A stretch of 64,000 bases of DNA, taken from the NCBI GenBank assembly GCA_951799425.1, contig OX637409.1, positions 13,550,960 to 13,614,959 of the forward strand, in the 5' to 3' direction. The stretch is from Ilex aquifolium. Its lineage: Eukaryota > Streptophyta > Magnoliopsida > Aquifoliales > Aquifoliaceae. The position numbers and the translations under genes were made by a program. Below the pieces are notes generated by a model, which saw nothing but the letters and a program-made list of their open reading frames with translations, ran no database searches and was not told the origin of the DNA. This document shows, one piece after another, positions 1-59,997 of this stretch (the first letter of the stretch is position 1; every line of letters starts with the position of its first letter).

Positions 1-950
1 ATTTCACACACTTGATCAGTAGAGGTTACAACAGATACTTGTTTAAGTTTTTTCATTTCTAAGGCTTCTAATTTTCGAGATAAATTAGCCATTTTAGCTC
101 TTAAATCATCATCGTCTTTTAAAACATATTTCCCTCTTTCAGATATAGATGGCCTATTTTCCACAATGTTTGAAGAAGTTGAGTCCCACATCTGGGAACT
201 CTCCGAAATAGTATCAAAAAATTGAAATGCTTCTTCAGGATTTTTACTCATAAATTCTCCTTGAGCCATCATTTCAACAAATTGTCTCATTGCAGATGGA
301 AGAGCATCATAAAAGAAACCAACTAAAGTCCAGTTTTCAAATGCATGATGTGGACAAGCTTGGAGAAGATCTTTAAATCTTTCCCAACATTGATAAAAAG
401 TTTCTTTTTCCTTTACAGCAAAATTCATTATTTTACGTCTTAGTGCATTTGTACGATGCACAGGAAAAAACTTTTTAAAGAACTCAGTTTGTAAAGCTTG
501 CCAGTTTGTGATAGAATTTGCTCTTAAAGAGTTAAGCCATAGTTTAGCTTTATCTTTTAACGAAAAAGGAAAAAGTTTTAATTTAATCATTTCAGAATTA
601 TCTTGCAAAGTTCCACAGACTTCTTCAAATTCTTTCATATGAACATAAGGATTTTCATCTTCCAAACCATGGAACTGTGGTAGTAGTTGTATTGTTCCTG
701 ACTTGATATTAATATTTGGAGCGTCTGTTGGAAAAGCAAAACATGACGGAACATTAGTTCTAGTAGGATGTAAATATTCTCTTAACGGTCTAGTATTTTG
801 AACTATTTCCTCTTCTCTAGCCTCTTCCTCCCTAGGTACGTTTTGAGCCATACTTAAATTAAATGATTCTTGTGTAGATGCAGATGAAGAAGATGAGGAA
901 GATGAAGGAGTTGACTGATTTACAGAACCTACTGATGAATGAACAGACAT
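1..950 (-). CDS. gag: Athila-type gag, N-terminal part (element L), runs off the left edge
   Basis: The reading frame starts at the ATG complementary to 948-950 and reads leftwards out of the window. It is nearly identical to the gag of element A at 35629-36578, with about nine base differences counted by eye. The order is a Ser-rich N-terminus, a GLEDENPYVHMKEFEEVC block, and the helical retrotransposon gag domain with IKLKLFPFSLKDKAKLWL and a WERFKDLLQ motif, typical of Athila gag. Gag packages the element RNA into virus-like particles. Unlike the A copy, the codon at 605-607 is CAA (Gln) rather than a stop, and I saw only substitutions against A, so this portion looks open. It lies downstream of the primer site at 1099-1117 and the LTR at 1124-3001, which makes it the first gene of a second, tandem element. 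Confidence 0.85.
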   Translation of the reverse strand, partial: MSVHSSVGSVNQSTPSSSSSSSSASTQESFNLSMAQNVPREEEAREEEIVQNTRPLREYLHPTRTNVPSCFAFPTDAPNINIKSGTIQLLPQFHGLEDENPYVHMKEFEEVCGTLQDNSEMIKLKLFPFSLKDKAKLWLNSLRANSITNWQALQTEFFKKFFPVHRTNALRRKIMNFAVKEKETFYQCWERFKDLLQACPHHAFENWTLVGFFYDALPSAMRQFVEMMAQGEFMSKNPEEAFQFFDTISESSQMWDSTSSNIVENRPSISERGKYVLKDDDDLRAKMANLSRKLEALEMKKLKQVSVVTSTDQVCE

Positions 951-1123
951 AGACTAAAAATAACAAACTATAAACATATATAACAAACAAACAAATAAAT
1001 TTATTTATTTATTATTTTTTTTTTTATAAATATTATTTTAATTTTAATTTTAATTTTATATTTTATTTTATTTTATTTTATTTTTTTAATTACCTTAACT
1101 CCCCGGCAACGGCGCCAAAAACT
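951..1123 (-). other. 5' leader of element L with tRNA-Asp primer binding site
   Basis: This is the untranslated leader between the LTR and the gag start. It is very A/T-rich with long T and TTTTA runs. On the minus strand, just inside the LTR end, positions 1099-1117 read TGGCGCCGTTGCCGGGGAG, which is complementary to the 3' end of plant tRNA-Asp. That primer is characteristic of Athila elements. Six bases separate the primer site from the LTR terminus at 1124. Confidence 0.85.
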
Positions 1124-1732
1124 TGATTCGCACTTTTTAGTGTGTCTGAATTATATTATTATTTTACACCCAAGTATAAGTGGTCAAATTGTAATTTTCT
1201 CGGTTTTAAGTCCAAGTATCGATCCCACAGAGAGTTGTTTAGTAATTTAAAACTTAAAATAAAATAAAAATATTAAAGGTGTTGTTTGAAGCAGAATATC
1301 GTTTGATAGCTTGTGATGTGAGCTTAGCTTGATAAAGACGAATTAAATAAAGTGCGTAAATAAAGCAGAGTGATGACAGGAATATAAAATATACCCTTCA
1401 GTTTAGGGATCCATATGCTTTGTATTGCTTAAGTTAATGGAAATGTTACCTCACAACAATTAACTCCCATGTTACTGGTAAGTCAATCGGCAGGTCTGAT
1501 GTATATAAATCATAACACAGCAGCTTCTTAGGCTAGCTGGTGGTATAAATAATAACTCAGCAACTTCTTAGGAAAGCTGGTTATATCCCCTTCAATTGAT
1601 TAACCCAAGCAAACCAGAAGGACAAGCCATTCATGAAGAATACTTGAGTTATTCCCTTGATGTTATGATTGTTACTTGTTTATATAATAAACCATAACAC
1701 AGCCGCGTCTTAAGCGAACTGGTGGTAGTATA

Positions 1733-2044
1733 GCATAACTCAGCAACTTCTTAGGAAAGCTGGTTACATAACCGCCAGTTAAACATCCTCAGTATTCCAG
1801 TGGAAGCAGAGCCATACCAATAGGAACACCATGGTTGTTAGACTGTCAGTCTATTTATATAATTTAGATATATATATAAACATATAGCATAACCCAGCAA
1901 CTTCTTAGGAAAGCTGGTTACATAACCGCCAGTTAAACATCCTCAGTATTCCAGTGGAAGCAGAGCCATACCAATAGGAACGCCGTGGTTGTTAGACTGT
2001 CAGTCTATTTATATAATTTATATATATATCTATATAAACATATA
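1733..2044 (-). repeat. 154-bp tandem duplication inside the Athila-type LTR
   Basis: The unit beginning GCATAAC(T/C)CAGCAACTTC starts at 1733 and again at 1887, with the AT-rich TATATATATAAACATATA tail repeated. A shorter, diverged relative precedes it near 1555. The same duplication is present in the other LTR copy near 37357-37670, so it predates the separation of these LTRs. Confidence 0.8.
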
Positions 2045-2555
2045 AATAAAACATCAGCATTTCCAGAACTCAAGCAATATTATACATATGTTTACCCTAG
2101 TTTGAAGGGTATAAACGACTACTCACACTCCATTACTATAGAAAAGCAAGAAGTGCGGGTAGTATTCATTACAACATAAATTAAAATATAACTTCTTTCA
2201 CAAAGAACACTTGAAACACAACCACATTTATTATCATTCAAGACACAAAAGTGGCGGTAGTTCAACTGTCCGAATAGAAAGATTACAACATAAATGTAGA
2301 AATACGGAAAGGGTGTCACACACCGGCTATTCCTCTCTCTTTTCTCTCTATCTTTCTCTAAGGTGTTCTTCCTTTGGAGCTTGGAGGCCGGCTGGTCTTG
2401 TATGAATAAGGGGCTGATTTTGTATGTTGGAAGTAACTGTATGTAGAAAAAAAGAACAAAGGAAGACTTGGTGTGGAAAGGCTAGAGAATGGAGGTAAGG
2501 TGTGAAGGCTTTTTTCTTTGGTGTCTGGATTGTATGAAATGTAAGAATTCAGCCC

Positions 2556-2565
2556 CTATTTATAG
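2556..2565 (-). promoter_or_regulatory. TATA box of the Athila-type LTR promoter
   Basis: Minus strand CTATAAATAG, followed downstream by GGGGCTGAATTC. It lies about 440 bp into the LTR from its 5' end, a plausible distance for U3. The same box is at 38180-38189 in the other LTR. No start site can be fixed from sequence alone. Confidence 0.6.
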
Positions 2566-3001
2566 AGGAGGAGGGGGGGCTTTAGGAAGGTCATCAACCC
2601 TTTAGGAAGGTTATGTCTTGCAGTAGGGTTAGGTGTCGCCGTCCGGAGCTGCCACTTCGCAACCTTCCAGAAGGTTGTGCCTTGCAGTGATGCTAGGTGT
2701 CGCCGTCTTGGGCTGCCTCTTGTCTTGCTTCCATTGGTACACATGTCTTTTCCTTATTGGTCCAAGTGTCATGCTCCCATTGGTCCAAGTTTCTTTATTG
2801 CACTTTAGTCCTTCGTCATTTCCAGCTTTGCAAATTTGTCTTGTACTTTCCAGTATTTCTGCATTTGACCCTGCAATCTTTAACATAATTTATTAAAAAA
2901 TTTAATTCACACCCAAAACATAATTCATAATATTTAGTTGTTTCATTTTTACAAAAGTGAGTACTTATCATTTTAATTTACACACCATTTAGGGTTAATC
3001 A

Positions 3002-3015
3002 CACCCCCTAACTTA
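3002..3015 (-). other. Polypurine tract of element A
   Basis: On the minus strand a purine-rich run (AGTTAGGGGGTG) abuts the LTR start TGATTAACCC. This is the usual primer site for plus-strand DNA synthesis. Confidence 0.75.
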
Positions 3016-4560
3016 AACTTTACTAGTCCCTAGTAAACATAAACTATAATACATCATAAACAGGAGTAAAATCATTTTCGTAGATCTTTTCACGATTGCA
3101 TTTAGCATATGCAACAAGCCGTTAAACTCCTAGGTGATCCCTAGTTGACGAGTTTTGTCTCGTGAAGGTTTTCAGTGAAGCTACCTGCAAACTTCAGTAG
3201 TTAGGAGTTTATTATTCATATTTTTCACAAAATTAATAGATCAATATTCCTTCTGTTTTCTTAAAAGACTTCCTTTTCTGATCACTATAAGAGTAACATA
3301 TGTTAGTTATAATATTATCTATATATTTTACAAAAACTTGTAAACAAAGTAAATAATTTCACATGTAATATATTTGAATCAACAGATATTTGAATAAAAT
3401 TTGGAATTTGACATAATCTCATGACAGGATATCAACACTATATTAGTTATATTATTAACATTCTCCTTTTATAGATAGATAGGACAAATACAATTGCATG
3501 ATTTCTGGAATCAAAAAGGACTTTTATTAGGTTGTACTGTGGCCATTGGGTTTAGAGTTTAAGAAACGACGTCTATGGGGTTCAAAAGTTACCTTTTGGC
3601 ACACCTCTTAAAACTTTATTTATTTATTCCTTTCATTTTTCACTTTCTTGGTTTTTTTTTTTTTTGGTGAGTGCGTTTTACGCTCCATCTCACTTTTTCT
3701 TGAACGAGTGCGTTTTACGCTCCATCTCACTTTTTCTTGAACGAGTGCGTTTTACGCTCCATCTCGCTTTTCTGTATCCTGTTGATTTAAAAGAGGGTGC
3801 AAGAAAATTATGTAGCAAAGGTAGGTTTAATATATTTTTATCTGGCTCGGGTACTTTTCGGGTTTCATGAAAAGAATTTATACTATTTTAGGCTCAAACA
3901 TGGCTGACTAATGATATAATTTTGTAAAAGAAATGGTTAAGGCTCAAAATTAATCAAACATGGCCTAAGATCATTTTCCAGAAATTATGTATTTGTATCA
4001 TTCCTATAAAAAGAATTTCAAGGATAATGCAAGTAATATAAGCTAACGAGTGCTAATCAAAACAAAATTAATGAGATTATTCAAAGAAAGTTTACCGTAG
4101 AATCGAAGATGTTTATTTGAGTAGATGTAGAATATCTCTCCAAGGGAGATTGACTCAAATTCTGCAATTGATTATACATCTCCACTATATATGCAAAGAG
4201 TGTAATATTTCACAAGGTTTCTGAAATAAAAGAAATCTATTTGTGCTTGTAAAAGTAAGTTTTAACAAAAATATTAAGATAATATATAACTAATATGAAA
4301 ATCCCGCGTGATCACATTAAGGTTATTTTTACAAAACATAGGAATATTAACCTAATTTAACTGTAAATTATATGAAATACATCTCCTAACTAATTTTTTT
4401 TTTTTTTTTTTTTTCAGAACTTAAATTAAAACACACAGCATGTTTAAAAACATAAAGTAAATTGTATAAACTAAAAGCACATAATGTAAAGGCTGAGTGA
4501 AAGAAAGTAAAATTTTTTTTTTTTTAAAATCTCCAGTCGATTTAAGAGTTAGAAGATTCT
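3016..4560 (-). other. Long conserved 3' non-coding region of element A
   Basis: No open frame of note. Two blocks are conserved with element K although much of the rest has diverged. Block 3098-3196 (K 55838-55939) contains the stems CTAGG/CCTAG and ACGAG/CTCGT, with changed loop sequence in K. Block 3781-3985 (K 56743-56940) includes the shared words AGAGGGTGCAAGAAAATTA and GATATAATTTTGTAAAAG. A 37-bp unit starting GAGTGCGTTTTACGCTCC is repeated about 2.8 times at 3669-3771 in A only. Confidence 0.7.
3669..3771. repeat. 37-bp tandem repeat in the 3' region of element A
   Basis: Units begin at 3669, 3706 and 3743 (third unit partial), each starting GAGTGCGTTTTACGCTCCAT. Part of it is read as an apparent 68-codon plus-strand frame, which is only the repeat. 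It is not present at the corresponding place in element K. Confidence 0.85.
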
Positions 4561-4887: not shown

Positions 4888-5292
4888 CTAGTCTGTATCA
4901 GAACTATCTAGTTCAGTAACATTAGTGACACGGTTAATTTCAGATCTCACGTATCTGTTTAGCATCGGGCCGGAATAGGATGGCGTTTCAGGGTAATCCT
5001 TGCTCTGCCCATCCCTAATCCACCGTAAACGATCTAACGATCGACCTGAAATTGGTTCCGCACACTTATTATACTGTCTCAGATGTTCTGTACGACCACA
5101 TTTTACACAAGCACAGAGACGATTTGCTCTTCGATGTTTAGCATATGTGCTTTTTCCACATAGGGGTCGTGCTTGGCTTTCAAAGATTTCTAAATTTCGA
5201 ACAGATTTAGCTTTTTGCATGATCAATGTATGTATATCTTTTGGAAGTTGACGTAATAAAATTAAACTCAACCAAAATAATTTTTCGTCCAT
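4888..5292 (-). CDS. Small cysteine-rich, basic accessory protein of element A (viral nucleic-acid-binding-protein-like)
   Basis: An intact 134-residue frame downstream of pol. Seen directly: an N-terminal helical, hydrophobic stretch (residues 1-35) containing LPKDIHTLI, then C45-G-K-S-T-Y-A-K, a basic arm HRRANRL, then C62-x2-C65-G-R, H70 and C77, then an acidic C-terminus. Element K has a homologue with the same start, the same spacing of C45, C62, C65, H70 and C77, and matching C-terminal words SKDYP, YSG and LNR. The layout (LP-x-D-[IV], then C-G-x-x-[TY/TF]-A-K, basic arm, CxxC-x-R) resembles the cysteine-rich nucleic-acid-binding proteins of carlaviruses and allexiviruses, known as RNA-binding proteins and silencing suppressors. 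Function is inferred by resemblance only. An alternative is an unrelated zinc-knuckle protein unique to these elements. Confidence 0.75.
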   Translation of the reverse strand: MDEKLFWLSLILLRQLPKDIHTLIMQKAKSVRNLEIFESQARPLCGKSTYAKHRRANRLCACVKCGRTEHLRQYNKCAEPISGRSLDRLRWIRDGQSKDYPETPSYSGPMLNRYVRSEINRVTNVTELDSSDTD

Positions 5293-5360
5293 TTTTCAAA
5301 ATTTTTTTTTTTTTTATAAAATATAAAAATGACTTAAGAAATTATTTAAAATTGACTCCC

Positions 5361-5397
5361 TATCTGGTTCTTTAACGTCTGACAGTCACAAAGACGA
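5361..5397 (-). promoter_or_regulatory. Conserved block upstream of the accessory gene, probable splice acceptor (element A)
   Basis: This block matches K 59961-59997 at all but two positions, although flanking non-coding DNA does not align. On the minus strand it reads through TTTGTGACTGTCAG (TGGCAG in K), followed by A(C/T)GTTAAAGAACCAGATAG. The CAG after a T-rich start fits a 3' splice site that would bring the downstream gene onto a spliced mRNA. The accessory start codon lies 68 nt downstream here and 23 nt downstream in K. Confidence 0.5.
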
Positions 5398-5623
5398 ACA
5401 AAATTTTTAACTCAAAATTACTATTTTAAACTCATAAAGTAAACTCATATGCCTATCTCCCCAATTGAAATTAAATGTTATCTGTAATATAAGAACAGTA
5501 ATAGTTAACATTGGTAATAAAAACCAGGAATTTGTTGACTTTCAGCAATTATGATCTCTGGCTTTTACGCAGCAGATTTGATCTGTCAAATAAATTACAA
5601 GTAATTAGTGATACTATTAATAA
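5398..5623. other. Non-coding spacer between pol and the accessory gene of element A
   Basis: A/T-rich, no frame and no recognisable motif beyond the conserved block next to it. Confidence 0.5.
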
Positions 5624-8217
5624 TCAAATAACAAGACACACATAGACTGGATCAAAAAGTTGTACAGAAGTTATATCTTGAGTGAATCCATCATAATAGG
5701 GTTTAAGCCTTTGTCCATTTACTTTGAAGATATTCCCAGTTATTGGATTTTCAATTTCAATTGCCCCATGGTTGAAAACTTGTTTAACTATATACGGTCC
5801 TGTCCATCTAGATCTTAGCTTTCCAGGAAATAAACGAAGCTTTGCATTATATAACAGCACTTTTTGAGATGGTTCAAACGATTTTCTCATGATATTTTTA
5901 TCATGAAAAAATTTTGTTCTTGATTTAGCAATTTTTGCATTTTCATAAGCTTCATTTCTTAATTCTTCCAATTCATTAATTTGTAGCTTGCGACATACTC
6001 CAGCTTCATTTATATCAAAATTTAGCATTTTAATTGCCCAATATGCTTTATGTTCTAATTCTACAGGCAAATGACATGGTTTACCATAAACTAACCGATA
6101 AGGAGACATTCCTAAAATAGTCTTATACGCAGTACGGTAAGCCCAAAGCGCATCAGTTAATCTTAAAGACCAATCCTTACGATCTGGATTTACTGTTTTT
6201 TCTAAAATGTATTTTATCTCCCTATTAGCTAATTCAGCTTGTCCACTTGTCTGTGGATGGTATGGGGTGGATATTTTATGAGAAATCATGTATTTTTTCA
6301 TCAGGTTTTCAAAAAATTTATTACAAAAATGTAATCTACCATCACTGATGATTGTTCGAGGAATCCCAAATCTAGATAAAATATTTTCTTTTAAAAACTT
6401 GATCACTGTTCTGTGATCATTATTTCTACATGGAATTGCCTCTACCCATTTAGAAACATAGTCGACTGCAACCAAAATATACAGATATCCAAAGGATGGA
6501 GGAAATGGTCCCATAAAATCACTGCCCCAACAATCGAAAATTTCAGTAACTAAAATAGGGTTTAAAGGCATCATATTTCTTTTTGAAATATTCCCCATTC
6601 TTTGACATCTGTCACAGTTTAAACAAAAGATATGAACATCTTTAAAAATAGTTGGCCAATAAAATCCACACTGCAAAATTTTAGCAGCGGTTTTCTTTGA
6701 AGCAAAATGACCTCCGCAAGCTTCAGAGTGACAAAACTGAATTACCTGACTAATTTCATGACTAGGTACACAACGTCTTATTATTTGGTCCTTACAGTAT
6801 TTAAACAAATAAGGATCTTCCCAAAAAAAATTACGTACCTCCCTTAGGAACCTATTTTTATCAGTCCAGGTATAATTAGAAGGAATAGTACCAGTAGCTA
6901 AATAATTAACTATATCTACATACCATGGTACTTCGGTTATAGCTAAGAGTTGTTCATCTGGAAAAGTTTCTTTAATCGGAATTGATTCTTCTTTTATATT
7001 ATAGTTCAATCTTGACAAGTGATCTGCTACCACATTTTCTACTCCTTTCTTATCTTTAATTATAAGATCAAATTCTTGAAGTAACAAAATCCAACGTAGG
7101 AGACGTGGTTTAGCATCTTTCTTAGTAAACAAATATTTCAAAGCTGCATGATCTGTAAATACAACAATTGACGACCTAACCAAATATGAACGAAATTTGT
7201 CTAATGCAAACACAACAGCAAGTAATTCCTTTTCTGTGGTTGAATAGTTCATTTGTGCATCATTTAAAGTTTTACTTGCATAATATATAACATAGGGTTT
7301 TTTTTCTTTCCTTTGGCCCAATACAGCTCCTACAGCGTAATCACTTGCATCACACATTAGTTCAAAAGGCAAAGACCAGTCAGGAGGTTGCATGATAGGT
7401 GCAGAAATAAGCATGTTTTTTAATTTGTCAAATGCTAATTGGCATGCATCATTCCATTCAAATGTTATATCCTGACATAAAAGATTACAGATTGGTCTTG
7501 ATATTGAACTAAAATTTTTTATAAATCTTCGATAAAAACCAGCGTGACCTAAAAAAGACCGAACATCTTTTACGGTTTTTGGTGAAGGAAGATTAGCTAT
7601 TAAGTCGATTTTGGATTTATCGACTTCAATTCCTTTTTCAGAAACTATGTGACCTAGAATAATACCTTGTGTAACCATGAAATGACATTTTTCCCAATTT
7701 AAGACAAGGTTTGTTTCTTCACATCGAATGAGTACCTTTTCCAGATTTTCTAGACATAGTTGAAATGAATCACCATACACTGAAAAGTCATCTATAAAGA
7801 CTTCTAGATGTCGTTCTACCATATCACTAAATATGCTTAACATGCAGCGTTGAAACGTAGCTGGGGCATTACATAACCCAAAAGGCATTCTTTTATAAGC
7901 AAAAGTTCCAAACGGACATGTAAATGTAGTTTTTTCTAGATCATCTATTGCAATTTCAATTTGATTATAACCAGAATATCCATCTAGAAAACAATAATAT
8001 GCATGCCCAGCTATTCTTTCTAATACTTGATCTAGGAATGGTAACGGAAAGTGATCTTTTCTGGTAACAGAATTTAATTTTCGATAGTCAATACATACAC
8101 GCCAACCTGTGACTGTACGCATTGGGACTAATTCATTTTCTTGATTTTTTATTACAGTAACCCCAGATTTCTTTGGAACTACTTGTGTAGGACTGACCCA
8201 TTTACTATCAGATATAG
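5624..8217 (-). CDS. pol: Athila-type pol: reverse transcriptase, RNase H, integrase (element A)
   Basis: An open frame of about 865 codons of element A sequence; the first few codons (to 8230) come from the inserted LTR F. Reverse transcriptase comes first ([20 protein letters not shown] near residue 50, [10 protein letters not shown] near 80, catalytic FIDD at 145-148), then RNase H ([30 protein letters not shown]), then integrase with its HHCC finger (H-x-C region ending NCDRCQ), catalytic core ([22 protein letters not shown]) and a C-terminal [13 protein letters not shown] module. These are Athila signatures. One oddity: the core reads SDGRLHF where K has SDGGAHF. Interrupted upstream by F, so it cannot be made as one polyprotein. 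The end is a stop at 5624-5626. Confidence 0.92.
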
Positions 8218-8222
8218 GATAA

Positions 8223-10902
8223 TGTAACACCCTACATTTTATTTTATATATGCATATAGATTTATAGTAAATAATAGTTGAAATTTAGTTTTAATAAGTG
8301 AAAATATGAAATTTTAGGTCCTAGAACTTGTATTAAATAGGTTTGGTGTAAAAATATGTGTTGGAGAGGTTTGTGACGGATTTGGTTGGCTTAGGATGGA
8401 TTGGAATTGGAAAAGGGGTGAAACAATGAACAGTGCACGTGAACAGTACACTGGCTGCAACTTCAAGCCCAATTTAGACCTTGATTCAGTCAATATCTTT
8501 CAAAACTCAAAACATGAAAGTTGTAGAGCTCTTTCTTAGAATTCCATATCATCTTGAATCATCTCAATCGGAGCTCGGATGAGAGAGTTATACCCAGATA
8601 ACGAAGCGATGTCGAAACAGTCCGGCAGACTACCTTTTTTGTTGGAAAGTCCAAATTGCGCACCGTTATTTTTGTTAGAACCCTAACTCGTATATATTTC
8701 CAACCATATAGGTCACACATACTAGAAATACCTGAGTCAAATCAGTTTATTCTCCAAAGTTGACCAAAATCTGCACTGTGGTGTTCCTTGGATAGTAATT
8801 TTAATGTTTCGAGTGTAAATTTATTTTAGTTTTGAAATAAATCATAAAAATAAATGTTTTTAGGTTAAAATAAAATTAAAAATGAATCCGGAACGTCGAA
8901 AAACCTTAGGGTAGTCATATGGATCAAAATGAAGATATTTATTGGCAAAATTGTAATTTTTGAGAAAAATGAAATTTTTGGGCCCAATGAACAGTAAAAT
9001 TTGGGATTTTACTGCCCTTATAACCCCATTATCTTCTCATTTTCTTCATTTCTTCATTCCACTCTCACACCCCAACCCTTAGAACCCTAGAGGAAGACTA
9101 AGGGAGGAAGAAAAGGGAAGAGGGAGGTCCCTAGAGCTTGGGTTTCACTTTCAATCTTGATTCAAGGTAGGGGTTTTCTTCCATTCTTGTTCATTGATGT
9201 TAGGGTTAATTTATATGTATGTTTTGACTCTTAATCATATGTATTTGCTATGGGTTCCTTGTTTCCTTAATATTCTTGCAACCTTTATCATGTTTTGAGT
9301 AAAGTATTGGTGGGAGAACCATAAAAACCCTAGTTTTTGAGGAATGGGGATTTCTTTCTCAATATTCACTAAATCTTGGTGTTGAAAACTCTAGAGCTTT
9401 GTGTTGAGTAATATAATGATATTGATAATGATCTCTTGCATGTTTCTCTTTAAATTGCCCTATTTGAAGATATCACTTGTGAGAATTGGGGATTTTTCTT
9501 GAAAATTGCTTGTAAATAGGAGACTTGTGGAATTGTTACATTGAGGCTAGGGTATATATATATGTGTGTTTTGGCTATCAATGGTATATATATGCTATGG
9601 ATTCATCATCTCTTAGGCTTTTTGCAAAGATTACATGTTTTGAACAAAGTTAGTGTTTAATACCCATGAAATCTCTTTTCTAGTTTTAAAACCCTAATTT
9701 TTGGAGAGTAATGTATTTCCTTCTTAAATGCTTTCTTTATTATGAATTTCGAAACCGTAGTGCTTTGTGTTGGGTAGAAAAATGATGTTATTGTGATCTC
9801 ATGTATTTTTCTTAGTTGGTTGTGGAATTGTTACATGTTATATTTTGGAGATTTTAGACAGATACTTGTAAATTGAGATAAATGTTGGAATTGTATGCTT
9901 GGTTGGGTTGTTTGTGATGCACATGAGTGAGAGGTTCCATGTAAGGATGCTCACCCCTTCTCAAGAGGTTCCCGGTAAGGATGCTTGAGAAATAAGGCCG
10001 TTATAGTGAGAGGTTCTTTGTAAGGATGCTCACCCCCTTCCCAAGAGGTTTCCGATAAGGATGCTTGGGAAACAATGTAGTGATTGGTGAGAGGTTCCAT
10101 GTAAGGATGCTCATCCATTCTCAAGAGGTTCCCGGTAAGGATGCTTGAGAATCAAAGGTGACCTAAAAGGGGGTGGAGGTTACCACAAAGTATGCCACCT
10201 ACCAAAAGAATTGTTGGGAATTGTTTATGGCCATTAATGATTATTAATTGTATGTGATGTTCGTTTATTCATTTAAGTAATGTTTTTTTTAATAAACTTG
10301 AGATCCTTTTTTTAATGTCACCGCTTTATTTCAAATTATGTACCTATGTTATGTTAAAAATGAGACCGACCGTTTTAAATGATTTTCTAAACCTTGTATG
10401 GGTTTGGGAGAATTTTTCTACAGAGCTTCGTGCTCACCCCCTACCGCTAACATTTTTCAGATTACTCGCTTGAGGAGGACGTAAGGGTCGAGGAGCCCGC
10501 TACTTGGGAGACTCCACTTGACGGGGGTGTGGATCCCGAGGTGGACGCATAGAGCGACCTCCTTTCCTTTTGTACTAGACTAGGAACATTGTGTAGTCTA
10601 GCTTCTTTTGTTCATTCCGCTGCGCTACTTTAATTAATTTTTTTGAGATGTAATAGCAATGATTTGGGCTTATTATTTTGGATAATGTTGTAAATATTTT
10701 ATGGATAAATGGACCCGGTGTGGTCAATGTAGTATAATTGCACAGGTTGTGTTTTGGGTAGAGCTCCCCGAACAAAGGAGACTCTGCCCGAATTTCGTTA
10801 AATTAAGGACCCCCGGTTATTTATGGATTTTTATTAGTTGCTCTCATGGTATAAATGGTTTTAGAATGTAATGCCGTCCAGGGTGGTATTTGGGGCGTTA
10901 CA
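8223..10902 (+). mobile_element. Solo LTR F, chromovirus-like, inserted in pol of element A
   Basis: 2680 bp with ends TGTAACACCC...GGGCGTTACA, flanked by the 5-bp duplication GATAA (8218-8222 and 10903-10907). Without it, the pol sequence reads on as in element J. No internal coding region remains, so it is a solo LTR. Its 3' part (TGGACCCGGTGTGGTCAA, then GAGCTCCCC...AAAGGAGACTCTG) matches the 3' part of the D LTR, and the ends match E, H and I. It carries tandem GTAAGGATGCTC repeats at 9927-10155 and the shared cassette at 8511-8594. Confidence 0.88.
9927..10155 (+). repeat. Tandem repeats in solo LTR F
   Basis: Alternating units GAGAGGTTCCATGTAAGGATG plus CTCACC and CAAGAGGTTCCCGGTAAGG plus ATGCTTGAG occur about three times. 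Solo LTR H carries the same two alternating units in reverse orientation at 41346-41720 with a clean 100-bp period. Confidence 0.8.
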
Positions 10903-34521: not shown

Positions 34522-34740
34522 CTTCCACAATTCCTCTTGGAATTCTTATTGATCGGTCTGCTAATTGTAATTTAATATTGGAAGGTTTTAACTCACTTAG
34601 TCCTAGTTGTGTATAGACTGAATATGACATTAAATTACAACTGGATCCAAGATCTAACAGAGCTTGTTCAATTTGAAAATTTCCAATAAGACATGAAATT
34701 GTAGGACTACCCGGATCTTTGTACTTTAGATGTATCATGT
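34522..34740 (-). pseudogene. pro: Athila-type protease, N-terminal part (element A), cut by element B
   Basis: Minus-strand frame with the catalytic block ALLDLGSSCNLMSYSVY and TQLGLSEL, the DLG-type aspartic protease of Athila elements. The visible frame runs past 34522 into B and its last residues are B sequence. Its upstream end overlaps the gag frame in another register, so a frameshift separates gag and protease at about 34725-34738. J has one continuous frame here. Confidence 0.87.
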
Positions 34741-36230
34741 TGTATTATATTAACTTGCTCAGTTGCAAATGCTTTCTTTGGTACATTAGTTCTTCTTTTT
34801 GTTGTGCAAAGATCTTTTAGGAATTTAGCATAAACTGGAACTCGTTTTATTGCATCCAATAAGTGAATATTAATTTTTACCTGTTTAAATAGCTCGAGAA
34901 TATCAGATTGATCTTTTTCAGTTTGAAGTTGCTTGACTCTTTGAGGGAAAGGTAAAGGGATAGGACATGGCGGATCTTTTTCACTTTGTACTCCTGGTTG
35001 CTTTTTGATTAAAGGTTCAGATTCAAGTGGTTCGTTTACAGGAATTGACTCATGTATTTTTTTTGAAATCTTAGGTTTGATGGTTTTATCAATTACCTTA
35101 CCACTTCTTAGTGTTGTAATTGCTTGTACTTGATTTGACGAAGGTTCAGAGGATACATAATTAACATGACTCTGACTTTGTGGAGGTTTAGGTTGAGAAG
35201 GAAACTTTCCTTTCTCTGACGTACTCAAGGACTGGGTCAACTTAGCAAGATGACTCTTAATATCTTCAATACTCTGGGAAGTTTGAGCTTTAAAATCATT
35301 AAATGCTTGAGTTGTTTGAGTATTAAAACTCATTTGACTTTGAATAAATTGATTCATAGTGTCTTCCAGAGCTCTTCTTTGAGGAGGTTGATAAGGTTGG
35401 TACTGTTGTTGATTTTGTGGCTGTGGTGGACCTTGTGTTTGATTTTTAGGTTGTGTATTTCTCCAACTAAAATTCGGATGATTTCTCCATCCTGGATTGT
35501 AAGTTTCAGAATATGGATTTGAATATGGTTTATTATAAGTTGGAACAACATTTGATTGTTCAATTAAAACTTCTTTAAAGGCAGGTATAGTTGGACATTC
35601 TCCAGAAGGATGTCCTGACAACGCATAAATTTCACACACTTGATCAGTAGAGGTTACAACAGATACTTGTTTAAGTTTTTTCATTTCTAAGGCTTCTAAT
35701 TTTCGAGATAAATTAGCCATTTTAGCTCTTAAATCATCATCGTCTTTTAAAACATATTTCCCTCTTTCAGATATAGATGGCCTATTTTCCACAATGTTTG
35801 AAGAAGTTGAGTCCCACATCTGGGAACTCTCCGAAATAGTATCAAAAAATTGAAATGCTTCTTCAGGATTTTTACTCATAAATTCTCCTTGAGCCATCAT
35901 TTCAACAAATTGTCTCATTGCAGATGGAAGAGCATCATAAAAGAAACCAACTAAAGTCCAGTTTTCAAATGCATGATGTGGATAAGCTTGGAGAAGATCT
36001 TTAAATCTTTCCCAACATTGATAAAAAGTTTCTTTTTCCTTTACAACAAAATTCATTATTTTACGTCTTAGTGCATTTGTACGATGCACATGAAAAAACT
36101 TTTTAAAGAACTCAGTTTGTAAAGCTTGCCAGTTTGTGATAGAATTTGCTCTTAAAGAGTTAAGCCATAGTTTAGCTTTATCTTTTAACGAAAAAGGAAA
36201 AAGTTTTAATTTAATCATTTCAAAATTATC
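34707..36230 (-). pseudogene. gag: Athila-type gag, main part (element A)
   Basis: Open from just after the nonsense codon to a frameshift-caused stop at 34707. It contains the gag domain (MIKLKLFPFSLKDKAKLWL; TEFFKKFFHVHRTNALRR; CWERFKDLLQAYPHHAFE; FYDALPSAMRQFV), a short coiled-coil stretch (LRAKMANLSRKLEALEMKKL), a degenerate knuckle (C-E-I-Y-A-L-S-G-H-P-S-G-E-C), a Pro/Gln-rich segment and a Lys/Pro-rich tail leading towards protease. It assembles the particle. It matches J 51071-52570 and L 1-950. Confidence 0.9.
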
Positions 36231-36578
36231 TTACAAAGTTCCACAGACTTCTTCAAATTCTTTCATATGAACATAAGGATTTTCATCTTCCAAACCATGG
36301 AACTGTGGTAGTAGTTGTATTGTTCCTGGCTTGATATTAATATTTGGAGCGTCTGTTGGAAAAGCAAAACATGACGGAACATTAGTTCTAGTAGGATGTA
36401 AATATTTTCTTAACGGTCTAGTATTTTGAACTATTTCCTGTTCTCTAGCCTCTTCCTCCCTAGGTACGTTTTGAGCCATACTTAAATTAAATGATTCTTG
36501 TGTATATGCAGATGAAGAAGATGAGGAAGATGAAGGAGTTGACTGATTTACAGAACCTACTGATGAATGAACAGACAT
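36231..36578 (-). pseudogene. gag: Athila-type gag, N-terminal part (element A), ended by a stop codon
   Basis: Starts MSVHSSVGSVNQSTP with a Ser-rich stretch, then REEEAREQEIVQN and GLEDENPYVHMKEFEEVCG. It stops at TAA (36231-36233) where L has CAA, a single C-to-T change; the rest of gag continues in the same frame. Confidence 0.92.
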
Positions 36579-36747
36579 AGACTAAAAATAACAAACTATA
36601 AACATATATAACAAACAAACAAATAAATTTATTTATTTATTATTATTATTTTTTTATAAATATTATTTTAATTTTAATTTTATATTTTATTTTATTTTAT
36701 TTTATTTTTTTAATTACCTTAACTCTCCGGCAACGGCGCCAAAAACA
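36579..36747 (-). other. 5' leader of element A with tRNA-Asp primer binding site
   Basis: A/T-rich leader. The primer site at 36724-36741 on the minus strand begins TGGCGCCGTTGCCGGAGA, one mismatch from the tRNA-Asp match in L. The LTR begins six bases further, at 36748. Confidence 0.85.
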
Positions 36748-38625
36748 TGATTCGCACTTTTTAGTGTGTCTGAATTATATTATTATTTTACACCCAAGTA
36801 TAAGTGGTCAAATTGTAGTTTTCTCGGTTTTAAGTCCAAGTATCGATCCCACAGAGAGTTGTTTAGTAATTTAAAACTTAAAATAAAATAAAAATATTAA
36901 AGGTGTTGTTTGAAGCAGAATATCGTTTGATAGCTTGTGATGTGAGCTTAGCTTGACAAAGACGAATTAAATAAAGTGCGTAAATAAAGCAGAGTGATGA
37001 CAGGAATATAAAATATACCCTTCAGTTTAGGGATCCATATGCTTTGTATTGCTTAAGTTAATGGAAATGTTGCCTCACAACAATTAACTCCCATGTTACT
37101 GGTAAGTCAATCGGCAGGTCTGATGTATATAAATCATAACACAACAGCTTCTTAGGCTAGCTGGTGGTATAAATAATAACTCAGCAACTTCTTAGGAAAG
37201 CTGGTTATATCCCCTTCAATTGATTAACCCAAGCAAACCAGAAGGACAAGCCATTCATGAAGAATACTTGAGTTATTCCCTTGATGTTATGATTGTTACT
37301 TGTTTATATAATAAATCATAACACAGCCGCGTCTTAAGCGAACTGGTGGTAGTATAGCATAACCCAGCAACTTCTTAGGAAAGCTGGTTACATAACCGCC
37401 AATTAAACATCCTCAGTATTCCAGTGGAAGCAGAGCCATACCAATAGGAACACCATGGTTGTTAGACTGTCAGTCTATTTATATAATTTAGATATATATA
37501 TAAACATATAGCATAACCCAGCAACTTCTTAGGAAAGTTGGTTACATAACCGCCAGTTAAACATCCTCAGTATTCCAGTGGAAGCAGAGCCATACCAATA
37601 GGAACGCTGTGGTTGTTAGACTGTCAGTCTATTTATATAATTTATATATATATCTATATAAACATATAAATAAAACATCAGCATTTCCAGAACTCAAGCA
37701 ATATTATACATATGTTTACCCTAGTTTGAAGGGTATAAACGACTACTCACACTCCATTACTATAGAAAAGCAAGAAGTGCGGGTAGTATTCATTACAACA
37801 GAAATTAAAATATAACTTCTTTCACAAAGAACACTTGAAACACAACCACTTTTATTATCATTCAAGACACAAAAGTGGCGGTAGTTCAACTGTCCGAATA
37901 GAAAGATTACAACATAAATGTAGAAATACGGAAAGGGTGTCACACACCGGCTATTCCTCTCTCTTTTCTCTCTATCTTTCTCTAAGGTGTTCTTCCTTTG
38001 GAGCTTGGAGGCCGGCTGGTCTTGTATGAATAAGGGGCTGATTTTGTATGTTGGAAGTAACTGTATGTAGAAAAAAAGAACAAAGGAAGACTTGGTGTGG
38101 AAAGGCTAGAGAATGGAGGTAAGGTGTGAAGGCTTTTTTCTTTGGTGTCTGGATTGTATGAAATGTAAGAATTCAGCCCCTATTTATAGAGGAGGAGGGG
38201 GGGCTTTAGGAAGGTCATCAACCCTTTAGGAAGGTTATGTCTTGCAGTAGGGTTAGGTGTCGCCGTCCGGAGCTGCCACTTCGCAACCTTCCAGAAGGTT
38301 GTGCCTTGCAGTGATGCTAGGTGTCGCCGTCTTGGGCTGCCACTTGTCTTGCTTCCATTGGTACACATGTCTTTTCCTTATTGGTCCAAGTGTCATGCTC
38401 CCATTGGTCCAAGTTTCTTTATTGCACTTTAGTCCTTCGTCATTTCCAGCTTTGCAAAATTGTCTTGTACTTTCCAGTATTTCTGCATTTGACCCTGCAA
38501 TCTTTAACATAATTTATTAAAAACTTTAATTCACACCCAAAACATAATTCATAATATTTAGTTGTTTCATTTTTACAAAAGTGAGTACTTATCATTTTAA
38601 TTTACACACCATTTAGGGTTAATCA
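36748..38625 (-). mobile_element. 5' LTR of element A
   Basis: 1878 bp, TGATT...AATCA, nearly identical to 1124-3001. TATA box CTATAAATAG at 38180-38189 (minus strand). The right flank (from 38626) is reverse transcriptase of element D, so this is the true outer boundary of the array on this side. CACCC at 38626-38630 would be its target duplication; the partner lies left of the window. Confidence 0.92.
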
Positions 38626-40118
38626 CACCCCGGTACATCGCCCATTTCTATGACTCCACATAGGATGGCGCCTGCTGAGTTGCAAGAACTCAAGGTCCAA
38701 TTACAGGAATTGTTGGACAGGGGCTTTATTAGACCGAGCACTTCACCTTGGGGCGCTCCGGTTTTGTTTGCCAAGATGAAGGACAAGACCCTCCGACTAT
38801 GCATAGACTACCGGCAGTTAAATAGTGTTACTATCAAGAATATGTACCCTTTGTCGAGGATTGATGATTTATTTGATCAGTTGAGAGGGGCGCGGGTCTA
38901 CTCCAAGATAGATCTCTGCACGGGTTACCATCAGTTGAGGGTTAGAGATGCGGATATCCCTAAGACGTCGTTTAGGACGCGGTATGGGCATTTCGAATTT
39001 ACCGTCATGCCTTTTGGATTGACGAATGCCCCGGCAGCATTCATGGATCTCATGCATAGGGTGTTCCAACCCTACCTATATCACTTTTTTGTGGTCTTTA
39101 TTGACGACATTTTGATCTACTCCAAGTCTGAGAAAGAGCATGAGGGTCACTTGAGGGTTGTTCTCCAGACCTTGAGAGACCATCAGTTGTGCGCCAAGTT
39201 TAGCAAGTGTGAATTTTGGTATACAGATGTGAAATTTTTAGGACACATGGTGTCGGCTTTGGGTGTATCCGTGGACCTAGAGAAGGTTGAGGCAGTCATG
39301 AATTAGGAGAGGCCGAAGTCAGTCTTCGAGATATGCAATTTCTTGGGATTGGCAGGGTACTACCGGAGATTCATCGAGGACTTCTCCCGACTAGCTGCAC
39401 CTATGACGAGATTGACCCGGAAGGAGGTCAAGTTTCAGTGGGATGATTCGTGTGAGAAGGCATTCCAAAAGTTGAAAAGGAGGCTTACTTTAGCTCCTAT
39501 TCTGTTAGTCCCAAAGAGGGGACAGATGTACACAGTGTATTGTGATGCCTCCAAGGATGGACTTGGTTGCGTTTTTGATGCAGTCCGGGAGGGTGGTGGC
39601 TTATGGATCTCGGCAGTTAAAGAACCATGAGCAGAATTACCCCACACATGACATGGAGTTGGCGGCCCTTGCCTTTGCCTGGTACCACTATTTATATGGT
39701 GAGCAGTTTGAGGTGTTTTCGGACCATAAGAGTCTGAAGTACATCTTTACACAGCGGGACCTCAACAAGAGGCAACGCGGGTGGATGGAGTATCTGGAGG
39801 ACTATGATTTCACTTTGCATTACCATCCCGGTAAGGCAAATGTGGTGGCTGATGCACTCAGCCGGAAGTCACGGGGAGTCTTGGCTAGTGTGGCTTCCCG
39901 GGAGTGGCAGATGCTCGAGACTGTGGGACAGTTTGGGCTACGCTACATGGGTCAGGCTTAGGGCACTTTGGGGAGTTTGGTGGCTACGCCTTCCCTACTG
40001 AGTAGAGTGATCGAGTCCCAGGGGCAGGATACAAAGATTTTGTCCATTAGGGACCGAGTACAGTCAGGTACAGGTGACGAGGGCTGGACAATTCATATGG
40101 ATGGTAGTCTTCGGTTTA
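38626..40118 (+). pseudogene. pol: D pol fragment: reverse transcriptase and RNase H, decayed
   Basis: Begins at the insertion point of A and aligns with C 17380-18870. Visible: [56 protein letters not shown], RNase [12 protein letters not shown] and [10 protein letters not shown]. Breaks: TAG at 39304-39306 (Trp in C), one inserted base near 39575, an in-frame 9-bp loss near 39680, and TAG at 39959-39961 (Gln in C). It ends at GTTTA, where solo LTR G inserted. Confidence 0.92.
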
Positions 40119-49735: not shown

Positions 49736-50127
49736 AATTCGTTCTCTTGATTTTTTATTACAGTAATACCATACTTTTTAGGGACTACTTGTGTAGGACT
49801 AACTCATTTACTATCAGATATAGGGTAGATAATATTAGCATCTAATAATTTAAGTACTTCAGCACAGACTACCTCTTTCAAGTGTGGATTCAATCTTCTT
49901 TGCATTTGACGAGATGGTTTAGCATCTTCTTCTAAATAGATACAATGAGTACATAGAAGTGGACTTATACCTTTTATATCTGCTATTGTCCATCCAATAA
50001 CAGTTTGGTGATCTTTGAAAAATTTTGTCAAGTCTTTTTCTTGAATTTCAGATAATTTTGATGATATTATCACTGGATATATTTCATCTTCCCCCCAAAA
50101 GACATATTTTTGGTTATATGGAAGAGG
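49736..50127 (-). pseudogene. pol: J reverse transcriptase start and linker, cut by element D
   Basis: Minus frame with SSKLSEIQEKDLTKFF, GWTIADIKGISPLL and RQMQRRLNPHLKEVV. It has a TGA at 49804-49806 where A has Trp, and D interrupts it at 49736 in the RT N-terminus. The other part of J pol lies left of D, outside the window. Confidence 0.88.
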
Positions 50128-51114
50128 TTATAATTCTGGTTTAAAAACTTTGACGTTAGATTCTTCAGATTTAGGTGAATTCCTCGTTGATATATCTTTA
50201 GATTCAGTATCAGGTATAGATTCTAATGCATATGACTCTTTTTGCATAAAAACATTTTCAAATAAACTTTGAGTTAACAACTCAACACAATTTACTTCAT
50301 GCACTTCATCTTCTTCTCTAGGTTGTTTTGCAATGTTAAAAACATTTAATTCCAAGGTCATGTTTCCAAATGAAAGTTTCGTGACTCCATTCTTACAATT
50401 AATCAATGCATTTGATGTGACTAGGAATGGTCGACCCAAAATGACAGTTATGTATGCAGATGCATGAAAAATTGGTTGCGTGTCTAAAACAATAAAATCT
50501 GCTGGGAAATAGAATTGATCAACTTGGACAATAACATCCTCTAGAATTCCTCGTCGAGTTTTTATAGATCTGTTTGCTAATTGTAATGTAACATTCATAG
50601 GTTTTAACTCACTTAATCCTAATTGTGTATATACCGAATATGACATTAAATTACAACTGGCTCCAAGATCTAGCAGAGCTTGTTCAATTCGGAAATTTTC
50701 AATGATACATGAGATTGTAGGACTAACTAGATCTTTGTATCTAAGAAGAGTGTTATGCTGCATTATAGTACTAAATTGTTCAGTTAGAAATAACTTTTTT
50801 GGCACATTTGTTTTTCTTTTTATGGTGCAAAGATCTTTCAAAAACTTGGCGTAAGCTGGAACTCGTTTTATTGCATCTAACAAAGGAATGTTAATTTTTA
50901 CTTGTTTAAAGAGCTCAAGAATTTTAATTTGATCTTTTTCAGATGAGGACTTCTTAATCCTTTGAGGAAAAGGTAAAGAAATAGGACATGGATGATCTTC
51001 TTTATTTTGTATTTTTTGTTGTTTTTCGGCTGAAGGTTCAAGTTCAAGTGGTTCATTTACAGGAATTGACTTACGTATTTTTTTTTGAAATTTTAGGTTT
51101 AATGGTCTTATCAA
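50128..51114 (-). pseudogene. pro: J gag C-terminus and protease
   Basis: A 328-codon frame. The Lys/Pro-rich gag tail (KIRKSIPVNEPLELEP) comes first, then LELFKQVKINIPLLDAIKR, then protease with the catalytic block ALLDLGASCNLMSYSVY, VDQFYFPADFIVLDTQP and ILGRPFLVTSNALINC, then an acidic linker. In this copy the protease is not interrupted. It is separated from upstream gag by a frameshift near 51100 and from RT by a stop at 50128-50130. Confidence 0.88.
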
Positions 51115-52570: not shown

Positions 52571-52682
52571 AAACTATTAAAAGTAAACAAACAAACTATA
52601 AACATATAATACAAGTAACCAACTTCCTTATTATATTTAATTTCAAATTACCGTAACTCCCCTGCAACGGCGTCAAAAAACT
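52571..52682 (-). other. J leader with decayed tRNA-Asp primer binding site
   Basis: The region 52657-52675 matches the tRNA-Asp primer site with two substitutions (TGACGCCGTTGCAGGGGAG on the minus strand). The LTR begins at 52683. Confidence 0.8.
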
Positions 52683-57647: not shown

Positions 57648-58745
57648 TCACTCTCCACCAGCTCTACCCCTCAGGTAGCTAAGAATCTCCTCCTGCTATC
57701 GGAGAATCTCAGCTTGCTTGGTCTCGATGCCAAGCATGATGTCTCTCAGTGATCTCTGACTGCTGGTGCTGGGGCCTGCCTCTTGTGGCTGCTCTCTCTC
57801 TTCCTCCATCTCTATCTCCTCCTCCGCATTGAGCTCCTCTTGCACCTCGTCCACTCCATGGGTAGGGGCACCTCCTGTCTGGCCACTGGGCCGCCACTAT
57901 GACCTTGGCTCCTCCAGAAGGAAGCCTTGTTCAGTGGCCCCATTGGATTTTGGATCTCCATTTCTGGCCTCACCCTAACCCCATGATCTTTGCATATTTC
58001 AGTCACTTGGGTGCCGAAGGGAAGTGAATTCCACTTCACATCACACCCTTTCTTCATTTTCGTCAAAACTAGGGAGGGGAGGTCGATGCTTTGGCCTTTT
58101 CCAATTGCATACAATAGTCGGGCCATGTTGGGGAGTATTTCATTTTTTCTTCCTATCGAAGCAAAGTTGGCAACCGCAATCAAGTTCAACATCTTATATT
58201 TATCAGTCAACTCTCCTTGTCTAAATAATTTCTTCCCACCCCAAGAAAAACTAGATACCCCCGTTAGTTCTTTTCCTACCACATTCATCGTCACATTCTT
58301 TCTCGGGGGATAGGCGGGACTTGGTACTCGAGGCACCTCTTGCCTTATCCTCCAAATGTAATCTTCATCCACATCGATGTGGATTCCTCTCACATAGCTT
58401 TTCAACACCCCATTGATGATCTCGGCGTTGGAGTAAAACTGCCGCACCAAGTCTACTACGGCCTCTCCGCCATTTTGCAAGTACAAAACCCAACCCCTCC
58501 TATCCATCTCCGCAAAAATACCCAACTCAACAATATCAGTCAACACCACATCACGCTCACAAACCACAGCATGCTTTTGGTAGAAATTATCATACCTATC
58601 ATCTTTTAGAGCCGTAGAAAATCTGGTCTTTGTCATACCTCAGCGTAAGGGGGGGCCTCCCCTCTCTCACTTTGACTACTTCTTCCACAAAATTGGGTTC
58701 CTGAGTTGGTGGAATGCGCTTGGCAGGTAGCTTGGCCATTGGCAT
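57648..58745 (-). pseudogene. Athila env-like gene (3' ORF) of element K, broken
   Basis: Starts at the ATG complementary to 58743-58745 (MPMAKLPAKRIPPTQEP). The main open part is 57812-58636, with VVDLVRQFYSNAEIINGVL, SYVRGIHIDVDEDYIWRI and GKGQSIDLPSLVLTKM; this is the plant transposon-protein domain found in the extra gene of Athila elements. The C-terminus (57648-57890) is Glu-rich, ending LRDIMLGIETKQAEIL and LSYLRGRAGGE. Breaks: one frameshift near 58620, one near 57890, and one stop near 57700. I see no convincing signal peptide or fusion peptide, so env-like refers to position only. Element A lacks this gene. Confidence 0.75.
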
Positions 58746-59526: not shown

Positions 59527-59937
59527 CTAATCCGAGTCTCCCTCTGTGTCTGTGTAGTTCGGACGACCATTAACTCTCCCAATTTCCTCTCTCACAAACC
59601 GGTTAAGCAAAGTACCGGAATAGCATGGCATATCAGGGTAATCCTTACTCAACTCATTCACTATCCAGTCTAATTGATCGAGTGTGCAACTGAAAATTGA
59701 TTCAGAACACTAGCTATATCTTTTCTCGTGAAAGACTCTGCCACATTGTTTACAGGCACCCAGCCTTTTAGCACGATGACGTTTGGCAAAGGTGATTCTG
59801 CCACAGAGGGGTTTCGCTTGTTTTTCTTGGATTTCGGCCTTCCTTACCAGTCTTGCTTTTCTCATGATCACAATATGCACATCATATGGAAAAGTGCGTA
59901 GAACTCCCAGACTAAACCAAAAAATTTTAACATCCAT
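59527..59937 (-). pseudogene. Small cysteine-rich accessory gene of element K, one internal stop
   Basis: Homologue of A 4888-5292. It has 136 codons plus stop; the only break is TAG at 59710-59712 (codon 76), directly before the conserved Cys 77. Conserved: MD-x-K-[IL]-F-W at the start, P-x-D-[IV]-H, PLCG, AK, the basic arm (KRHRAKRL), AC-x2-CGR, H70, then SKDYP, CYSG, LNRFVR and an acidic C-terminus. The frame stays open and alignable past the stop, so the stop is probably recent. Same place in the element, between integrase and env-like. Confidence 0.75.
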
Positions 59938-59960
59938 GCTTTCTAAGCTTTAAGACTTAC

Positions 59961-59997
59961 TATCTGGTTCTTTAACATCTGCCAGTCACAAAGACGA
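59961..59997 (-). promoter_or_regulatory. Conserved block upstream of the accessory gene, probable splice acceptor (element K)
   Basis: Matches A 5361-5397 except at two bases. Minus strand TTTGTGACTGGCAG then ATGTTAAAGAACCAGATAG. The ATG within it is out of the accessory frame and soon stops; the gene start lies 23 nt downstream. Confidence 0.5.

Follow-up and report, generated by a model that had tools for sequence, protein, structure and literature searches.

Plants restrain retrotransposons largely via small RNAs, and the counter-moves of the elements are poorly known. The closest described relatives of the retrotransposon gene reported here are small cysteine-rich proteins of plant RNA viruses. 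The p10 protein of Grapevine virus A is an RNA-binding silencing suppressor (PMC9104223, PMC3712444) with an Arg-rich motif, a finger of the form CXCX4HX4C and a domain of unknown function, HKLDRLRFVKEGRV, reported as unconserved in the other vitiviruses compared (PMC9104223). The CRP of potato virus H suppresses local silencing (PMC3689765). Function nevertheless varies among these relatives, since p12 of chrysanthemum virus B shows no silencing suppression and acts as a transcription factor (PMC3689765).

Two related elements in the window

We analyzed a window of 64,000 nucleotides from Ilex aquifolium (contig OX637409.1). On its minus strand, an ORF running from 5292 to 4888 opens with ATG and comprises 134 codons (134 aa); the ATG lies about 330 nt downstream of the integrase of an Athila-like Ty3/gypsy element, here called A. 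The initial annotation held that two elements carry a homologous small protein in the same place, and this is borne out by the copy in element K (59937 to 59527), which is 51% identical to A over the 134 residues compared, each copy lying downstream of a same-strand integrase. The residues it named, Cys45, Cys62, Cys65, His70 and Cys77, are likewise present in both, the last Cys of K lying beyond its stop. Only A is intact: K is a pseudogene whose frame is interrupted once, by a stop following residue 75. A query set of 35 database proteins (E <= 1e-3) matched the window at these two places only; weaker matches (E 0.1 to 5.8) were treated as noise. The main features are as follows.

4888..5292, minus strand: NABP-like gene of element A, intact ORF of 134 codons (PF05515 1.6e-12, PF01623 1.5e-5)
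59527..59937, minus strand: NABP-like pseudogene of element K, broken by a stop codon past residue 75
5624..8230, minus strand: RT, RNase H and integrase of element A in an 868-aa ORF (Pfam RVT_1, RT_RNaseH, Integrase_H2C2, rve)
34707..36218, minus strand: gag of element A (Retrotrans_gag 3.4e-16)
36748..38627, minus strand: 5' LTR of element A (TG...CA ends and LTR pair; primer-binding site next to it, at 36741)
1124..3003, minus strand: 3' LTR of element A (LTR pair, TG...CA ends; followed by a further primer site and gag region, in tandem)
57812..58636, minus strand: third ORF of element K (PF20167, Transposase_32 1.6e-19); A has no such ORF of at least 100 aa
60525..61349, minus strand: C-terminal integrase region of element K (rve 0.0013, under the family cut-off)

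Element A reads, on the minus strand, 5' LTR, primer-binding site (which we take to fit tRNA-Asp), gag, a nest of other elements, protease region, RT-RNase H-integrase, the gene, a G-rich tract and 3' LTR. Its LTR pair has 15 mismatches in 1905 aligned positions. The gag region begins at about 36578 and is split from pol by the nest (about 11629-34516), the junction being taken from colinearity with 49826-52608. The protease region (about 11.1-11.6 kb) was assigned by position and because it is colinear with 50128-51114, where an aspartyl protease was matched; the corresponding ORF of A itself has no Pfam match. Between the gene and the 3' LTR there is no minus-strand ORF of at least 100 aa. 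The pol region of K is 75% identical to that of A at the nucleotide level. A second (archaeal-type) RNase H is not among the Pfam domains of the 868-aa ORF, which fits Athila, described as gag-PR-RT-RH-INT without Tat's second archaeal-type RNase H, and not Tat (PMC6317226). By domain content, element A fits an Athila-like assignment.

Two further observations concern the surroundings of the LTRs. Positions 1-3007 and 35629-38631 are 98.9% identical, the primer site and gag start behind the 3' LTR (window 1-1123) being a near-copy of those behind the 5' LTR: the elements are arranged in tandem and share LTRs. A 103-nt noncoding block (3096-3198), some 90 nt short of the 3' LTR of A, is 86% identical to 55842-55944 of K (minus strand); it contains two short inverted repeats whose loops differ between A and K, with folding z of -0.87 and -2.17, and is a candidate RNA element.

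Kinship with viral nucleic-acid-binding proteins

The initial annotation predicted a profile match to Viral_NABP, and this family (PF05515) is indeed the best match to A, with an E value of 1.6e-12 and 48.3 bits (cut-off 23) over residues 8-105. Carla_C4 (PF01623) also passes its cut-off (1.5e-5; 25.3 bits against 20.9), over residues 35-68 only. No other curated Pfam family exceeded its own cut-off for A, so the better match to another zinc-finger family that would have spoken against viral kinship did not appear; an eL43-like ribosomal zinc ribbon was considered and dropped, with a PDB profile E value of only 0.76. Nothing came close to a cut-off in NCBIfam for the seven proteins searched. 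The piece of K ahead of the stop passes both the Viral_NABP and Carla_C4 cut-offs. In a 13-member alignment (A2), Viral_NABP was found in 11 members and Carla_C4 in 10 (E <= 0.01), the two members lacking Viral_NABP being 64-aa pieces.

An iterative search of 5.8 billion proteins grew from 3 to 11 to 33 proteins at thresholds of 0.01, 1 and 10. For the last round the profile was built exclusively from element and metagenomic proteins. Its viral matches included Grapevine virus A (the RNA-binding protein, E 6.5e-8), Carrot vitivirus 1 (0.088) and Birch carlavirus (3.2). Apart from viral proteins, the matches listed were unnamed metagenomic ones, and two JGI proteins among the last-round matches carry the automatic label 'Viral nucleic acid binding'. 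Aligned pairwise, A and its Grapevine virus A counterpart are 46% identical over 63 aa; hhalign gave 4.5e-15 over 73 columns for this viral protein and, for the one from Birch carlavirus, 1.7e-9 over 30 columns. Among named relatives, the nearest by sequence is thus vitivirus p10.

Shuffle controls and reverse searches agree with this kinship. Against the Grapevine virus A protein, 1000 shuffles of A scored at most 23.5 bits and the real A 50.8, and for none of the three viral proteins did a shuffle score as high as the real sequence. Scored with an element-type profile, the three viral proteins reached 52.3, 32.1 and 26.8 bits (their own shuffles at most 5.6, 7.3 and 9.5). The Grapevine virus A protein alone, searched against the plant genome, gave a best E value of 9.4e-11, and the best 150 of 3186 candidates all match. 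Viral contigs and prokaryote genome contigs yielded no relatives; the silence of the viral contigs says little, since the Grapevine virus A protein as query matched none of them either. We consider the ORF almost certainly a true homologue of the flexivirus cysteine-rich NABPs. The viral kinship first proposed therefore stands in its general form, with the nearest named relatives being vitivirus proteins and the carlavirus protein far weaker; carlaviruses as nearest source were replaced by vitiviruses (by sequence) and trichoviruses (by fold).

Like the element protein, vitivirus p10 (Grapevine virus A ORF5, PF05515) has an Arg-rich arm, a CCHC finger, an LDRLR..G region, ETP-Y and an acidic end. 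It differs in being viral, in its length of 90 aa without the N-terminal helical part of about 40 residues, and in its finger spacing, CXCX4HX4C (PMC9104223) against CX2CX4HX6C in most of the 15 element family rows. In the exceptions among the latter (P0001, P0003 and P0016), either a Cys is absent or the pattern failed to pick up the finger. The element proteins share the HKLDRLRFVKEGRV-type region (SGRSLDRLRWIRDG in A), followed by ETP-Y, and a diverged version of this region occurs in the Carrot vitivirus protein. Carlavirus CRPs (PF01623) have in common with the element protein the GKSTYAKRRRA arm and the first CxxC, but only about 30 columns align (Birch carlavirus protein, E 3.2 in the protein search), and the finger of the carlavirus-type CRP of potato virus H, CX2CX9CX4C, is unlike that of the element (PMC3689765).

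The structure model, made from 27 sequences, is weak (pLDDT 65.6, pTM 0.35), with predicted helices at 3-15, 18-39, 49-59, 84-94 and 109-123; because three of the aligned sequences are viral, the fold evidence is not independent. An earlier model from four sequences was useless (pLDDT 46.9). A fold search against predicted viral structures gave 37 matches at E <= 10, none of them at <= 0.001. Four of the best 28 are unnamed; 23 of the 24 named ones belong to alpha- and betaflexiviruses (one a hypothetical protein), and the other is p23 of Citrus tristeza virus. The first match, the 15-kDa protein of Cherry mottle leaf virus (a trichovirus), is full-length, with 33% identity over 128 columns, but modest (E 3e-3, low TM-scores, weak model). 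Against the PDB, the fold search returned only two meaningless matches.

Copies, linkage and constraint in the Ilex aquifolium genome

Searching the window's own assembly (800 Mb, 103 contigs) with A, we scored the best 150 of 4097 candidates, and all 150 match, at 81-100% identity. Together with the Pfam E value of A and the distance between its real score and the shuffle maximum, this confirms that the ORF at 4888-5292 is real, beyond chance. Counted by eye, 134 of these 150 places have no internal stop, a share that describes the best-ranked rows and is not a genome average. A second NABP-like group exists in the databases (P0018-P0033), in which P0031-P0033 appear, by eye, to share frameshifts, like decayed genomic repeats. 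With its member P0022 as query, the best-ranked rows of the genome gave not the second group itself but a third subfamily of the first group, 44-47% identical to the query, mostly 141 aa long and about 57% identical to A. Here 149 of the 150 scored rows have no stop, and many scores are identical. Of ten third-subfamily loci, eight match a ninth at 95-98% over at least 1.9 kb, and the tenth is more diverged.

The link to the integrase was assessed with the C-terminal integrase piece of A as query (best 150 of 11,696 candidates scored), comparing the first 50 integrase rows with the 150 scored gene rows. A gene row follows on the same strand, 305-344 nt downstream, in 28 of the 50, which is a lower bound because only 150 gene rows were scored; for the first 23 integrase rows (at least 95% identity) the count is 19. 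Absence from all other Athila elements, the second finding that would have spoken against the initial reading, was accordingly not seen: many elements of this genome have the gene beside the integrase.

Twenty copies, chosen by hand and spread across the upper half of the gene rows, were read for their anatomy. Seven span gag to integrase, and their ATG lies 320-340 nt past the integrase piece; eight have gag and the protease region with no RT or integrase ahead of the gene; and five have neither gag nor pol, four of these with a primer site 445-491 nt upstream of the ATG. None of the 20 has a stop in the gene frame, and 19 use the same ATG, the first ATG of L010 being later. A third-ORF match (36-37% to that of K) stands behind the gene in 16. 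Because the loci were found through the gene, its presence there is no evidence; the open frame in the 13 copies whose elements lack RT and integrase is. The place of the gene is fixed after the integrase and many copies are open, and it thus does not correspond to an isolated endogenous non-retroviral virus element. Taken together, these data show a conserved additional gene of an Athila-like LTR-retrotransposon lineage.

Several unusual arrangements were seen along the way. L011, L013, L017, L018, L022 and L025-L027, with gag and protease region and without RT or integrase, form a non-autonomous subfamily, and five of these eight have a single gag-protease frame of 831-909 aa that starts ahead of gag. 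The RT and integrase of L039 are 80-82% identical to those of A (87% nucleotide identity to K), and this locus has two gene copies in a row (3026-3436 and 4994-5419) of 136 and 141 aa, about 71% alike. At G000:C15:22447249-22464501 (L028), five gene rows are spaced at 4.21 kb, and the one read consists of LTR, gene and LTR without gag or pol between. An array at G000:C2:23936061-23960542 (L040) has 17 rows spaced at about 1518 bp; the two units read are 99.9% identical and contain an integrase tail, the leader motif described below and a 112-aa NABP-like frame. As judged from these units, the array is satellite DNA from the integrase-NABP junction.

Selection was estimated between subfamilies and among copies. 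For A and K, omega is 0.34 (0.19-0.56), against 0.07 for the integrase. The subfamily pairs without the pseudogene gave 0.33, 0.34 and 0.27, with upper bounds of 0.53, 0.51 and 0.45. These estimates show purifying selection between subfamilies, with omega at about 0.3. Pooled pN/pS among copies is 0.29 for the seven full and 0.28 for the eight gag-protease copies, within-family ratios that are lowered by the ranking of copies by protein similarity. The five copies without gag-pol gave 0.64, from few changes, pointing to weaker constraint.

A conserved block precedes the gene in both elements of the window.

5354..5397, minus strand: leader motif of element A, 44 nt, CTGnCAG|A, candidate 3' splice site
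59954..59997, minus strand: leader motif of element K, 91% identity to that of A

Between A and K, identity reaches 91% in the 44-nt block, against 65% for the aligned part of the gene. It was present in all 20 copies read, 43-70 nt upstream of the gene, and also at each of the two genes of L039, in three third-subfamily loci and in the 1518-bp array. A hairpin was rejected, as the motif is less stable than most of its own shuffles in A and K alike, and no Rfam family reached its gathering score anywhere in the window. Without a stable fold, a splice site is the preferred reading; CTGnCAG|A presumably fits the plant 3' splice site consensus, which makes the motif a candidate 3' splice site.

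Proposed role, origin and comparison with other element genes

We propose that the element transcribes a short, probably spliced mRNA, with the conserved 44-nt motif serving as the 3' splice site. The small basic CCHC protein made from it would bind RNA (single-stranded RNA or siRNA) and blunt the RNA silencing directed at the element, in the way p10 acts for Grapevine virus A. A relative of viral silencing-blocking proteins is present in many element copies, and the elements may therefore use the same trick. Splicing, RNA binding and suppression by the element protein are all inferred, and we regard the explanation as a whole, from the NABP homologue in an Athila-like lineage to blunted silencing, as evenly poised. 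That silencing suppression is the main function, by analogy with p10, we would put just short of an even chance.

Alternatively, the protein might be an accessory nucleocapsid or RNA chaperone that binds the element's own RNA through its basic arm and CCHC finger, so that this RNA can be packaged, stabilized or exported, the suppression seen in viruses being irrelevant. The CX2CX4HX6C finger of most rows is close to a gag knuckle, the viral class is described as binding zinc and having an Arg-rich nuclear signal, and virion binding is described for one more distant CRP (PMC11213338); yet the conserved region extends past arm and finger (LDRLxW, ETPxY), and the gene is a separate frame behind pol, outside gag. 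We consider this role unlikely, if well short of negligible. Less probable still is a nuclear regulator that activates transcription from the element LTR or of host genes, as chrysanthemum virus B p12, a plant transcription factor of the homologous protein class, might suggest (PMC3689765). The basic arm could act as a nuclear signal, as in the viral class (PMC11213338), but the nearest named relative is vitivirus p10, an RNA-binding suppressor (PMC9104223, PMC3712444).

As to the origin of the gene, the initial annotation offered capture of a viral gene by the element or a gene shared by viruses and elements; the homology holds, and the direction is not fixed by the tree. The two vitivirus proteins adjoin the element family with weak support (83/78), so that p10 falls, weakly, between two groups of unnamed or element proteins. 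The second database group lies outside, and a very long branch leads to the carlavirus protein. A topology uniting the three viral proteins was not rejected (p-AU 0.19), and omitting the long branches fixed the direction no better. A host gene acquired separately by viruses and elements would be compatible with a root left unfixed by a tree of only three viral proteins, but no cellular family matched in the profile searches and the protein search listed nothing but viral and unnamed metagenomic proteins, making this source very improbable. Kinship-free chance or convergence upon a zinc knuckle is practically negligible: CX2CX4H fingers are common, but the 73-column Grapevine virus A alignment extends outside the finger and none of the 1000 shuffles reached the observed score, which together rule out a convergent gag knuckle. 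Returning to the proposed silencing suppressor, it is conceivable, although we doubt it, that the lineage has a working suppressor in common with RNA viruses and that derivatives without RT/integrase or gag-pol keep the gene because it protects element RNA; the elements might even have donated it to flexiviruses, given the weak placement of p10 between the two groups.

In the open-licence PMC literature, as far as its accessible text goes, we found no report of an NABP-like gene in retroelements, and PF01623 led only to glyoxalase papers. A survey of LTR-element ORFs counted only those of at least 250 codons, a limit that a gene of 134 codons would escape (PMC6317226). A CDD screen of LTR elements from 121 angiosperm genomes lists 15 extra domains, and the nine named in its section 12 include no NABP (PMC9289625). 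The gene may thus serve as a marker missed by surveys restricted to ORFs of at least 250 codons. With a viral-suppressor homologue whose frame stays open in very many copies, the elements' answer to silencing becomes directly testable, and standard assays would suffice for the suppression claim. The finding also links the gene pool of RNA viruses to that of retrotransposons, and the claim joins two fields.

Two known systems invite comparison. Plant LTR elements have other extra ORFs (env-like, PF03078, PF10536, PF04195 and the DRBM-like Tekay ORF), which are likewise additional genes in the 3' part, and for the Tekay ORF a role against silencing has been put forward (PMC11728184); we claim no sequence relation between these ORFs and the NABP-like gene. 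Insect R1 LINEs with a tobamovirus-like helicase also have a plant RNA virus-type gene in a retrotransposon, with an anti-silencing role discussed (PMC4686597), but they differ from the Athila-like case in the gene, in being non-LTR elements and in their insect hosts.
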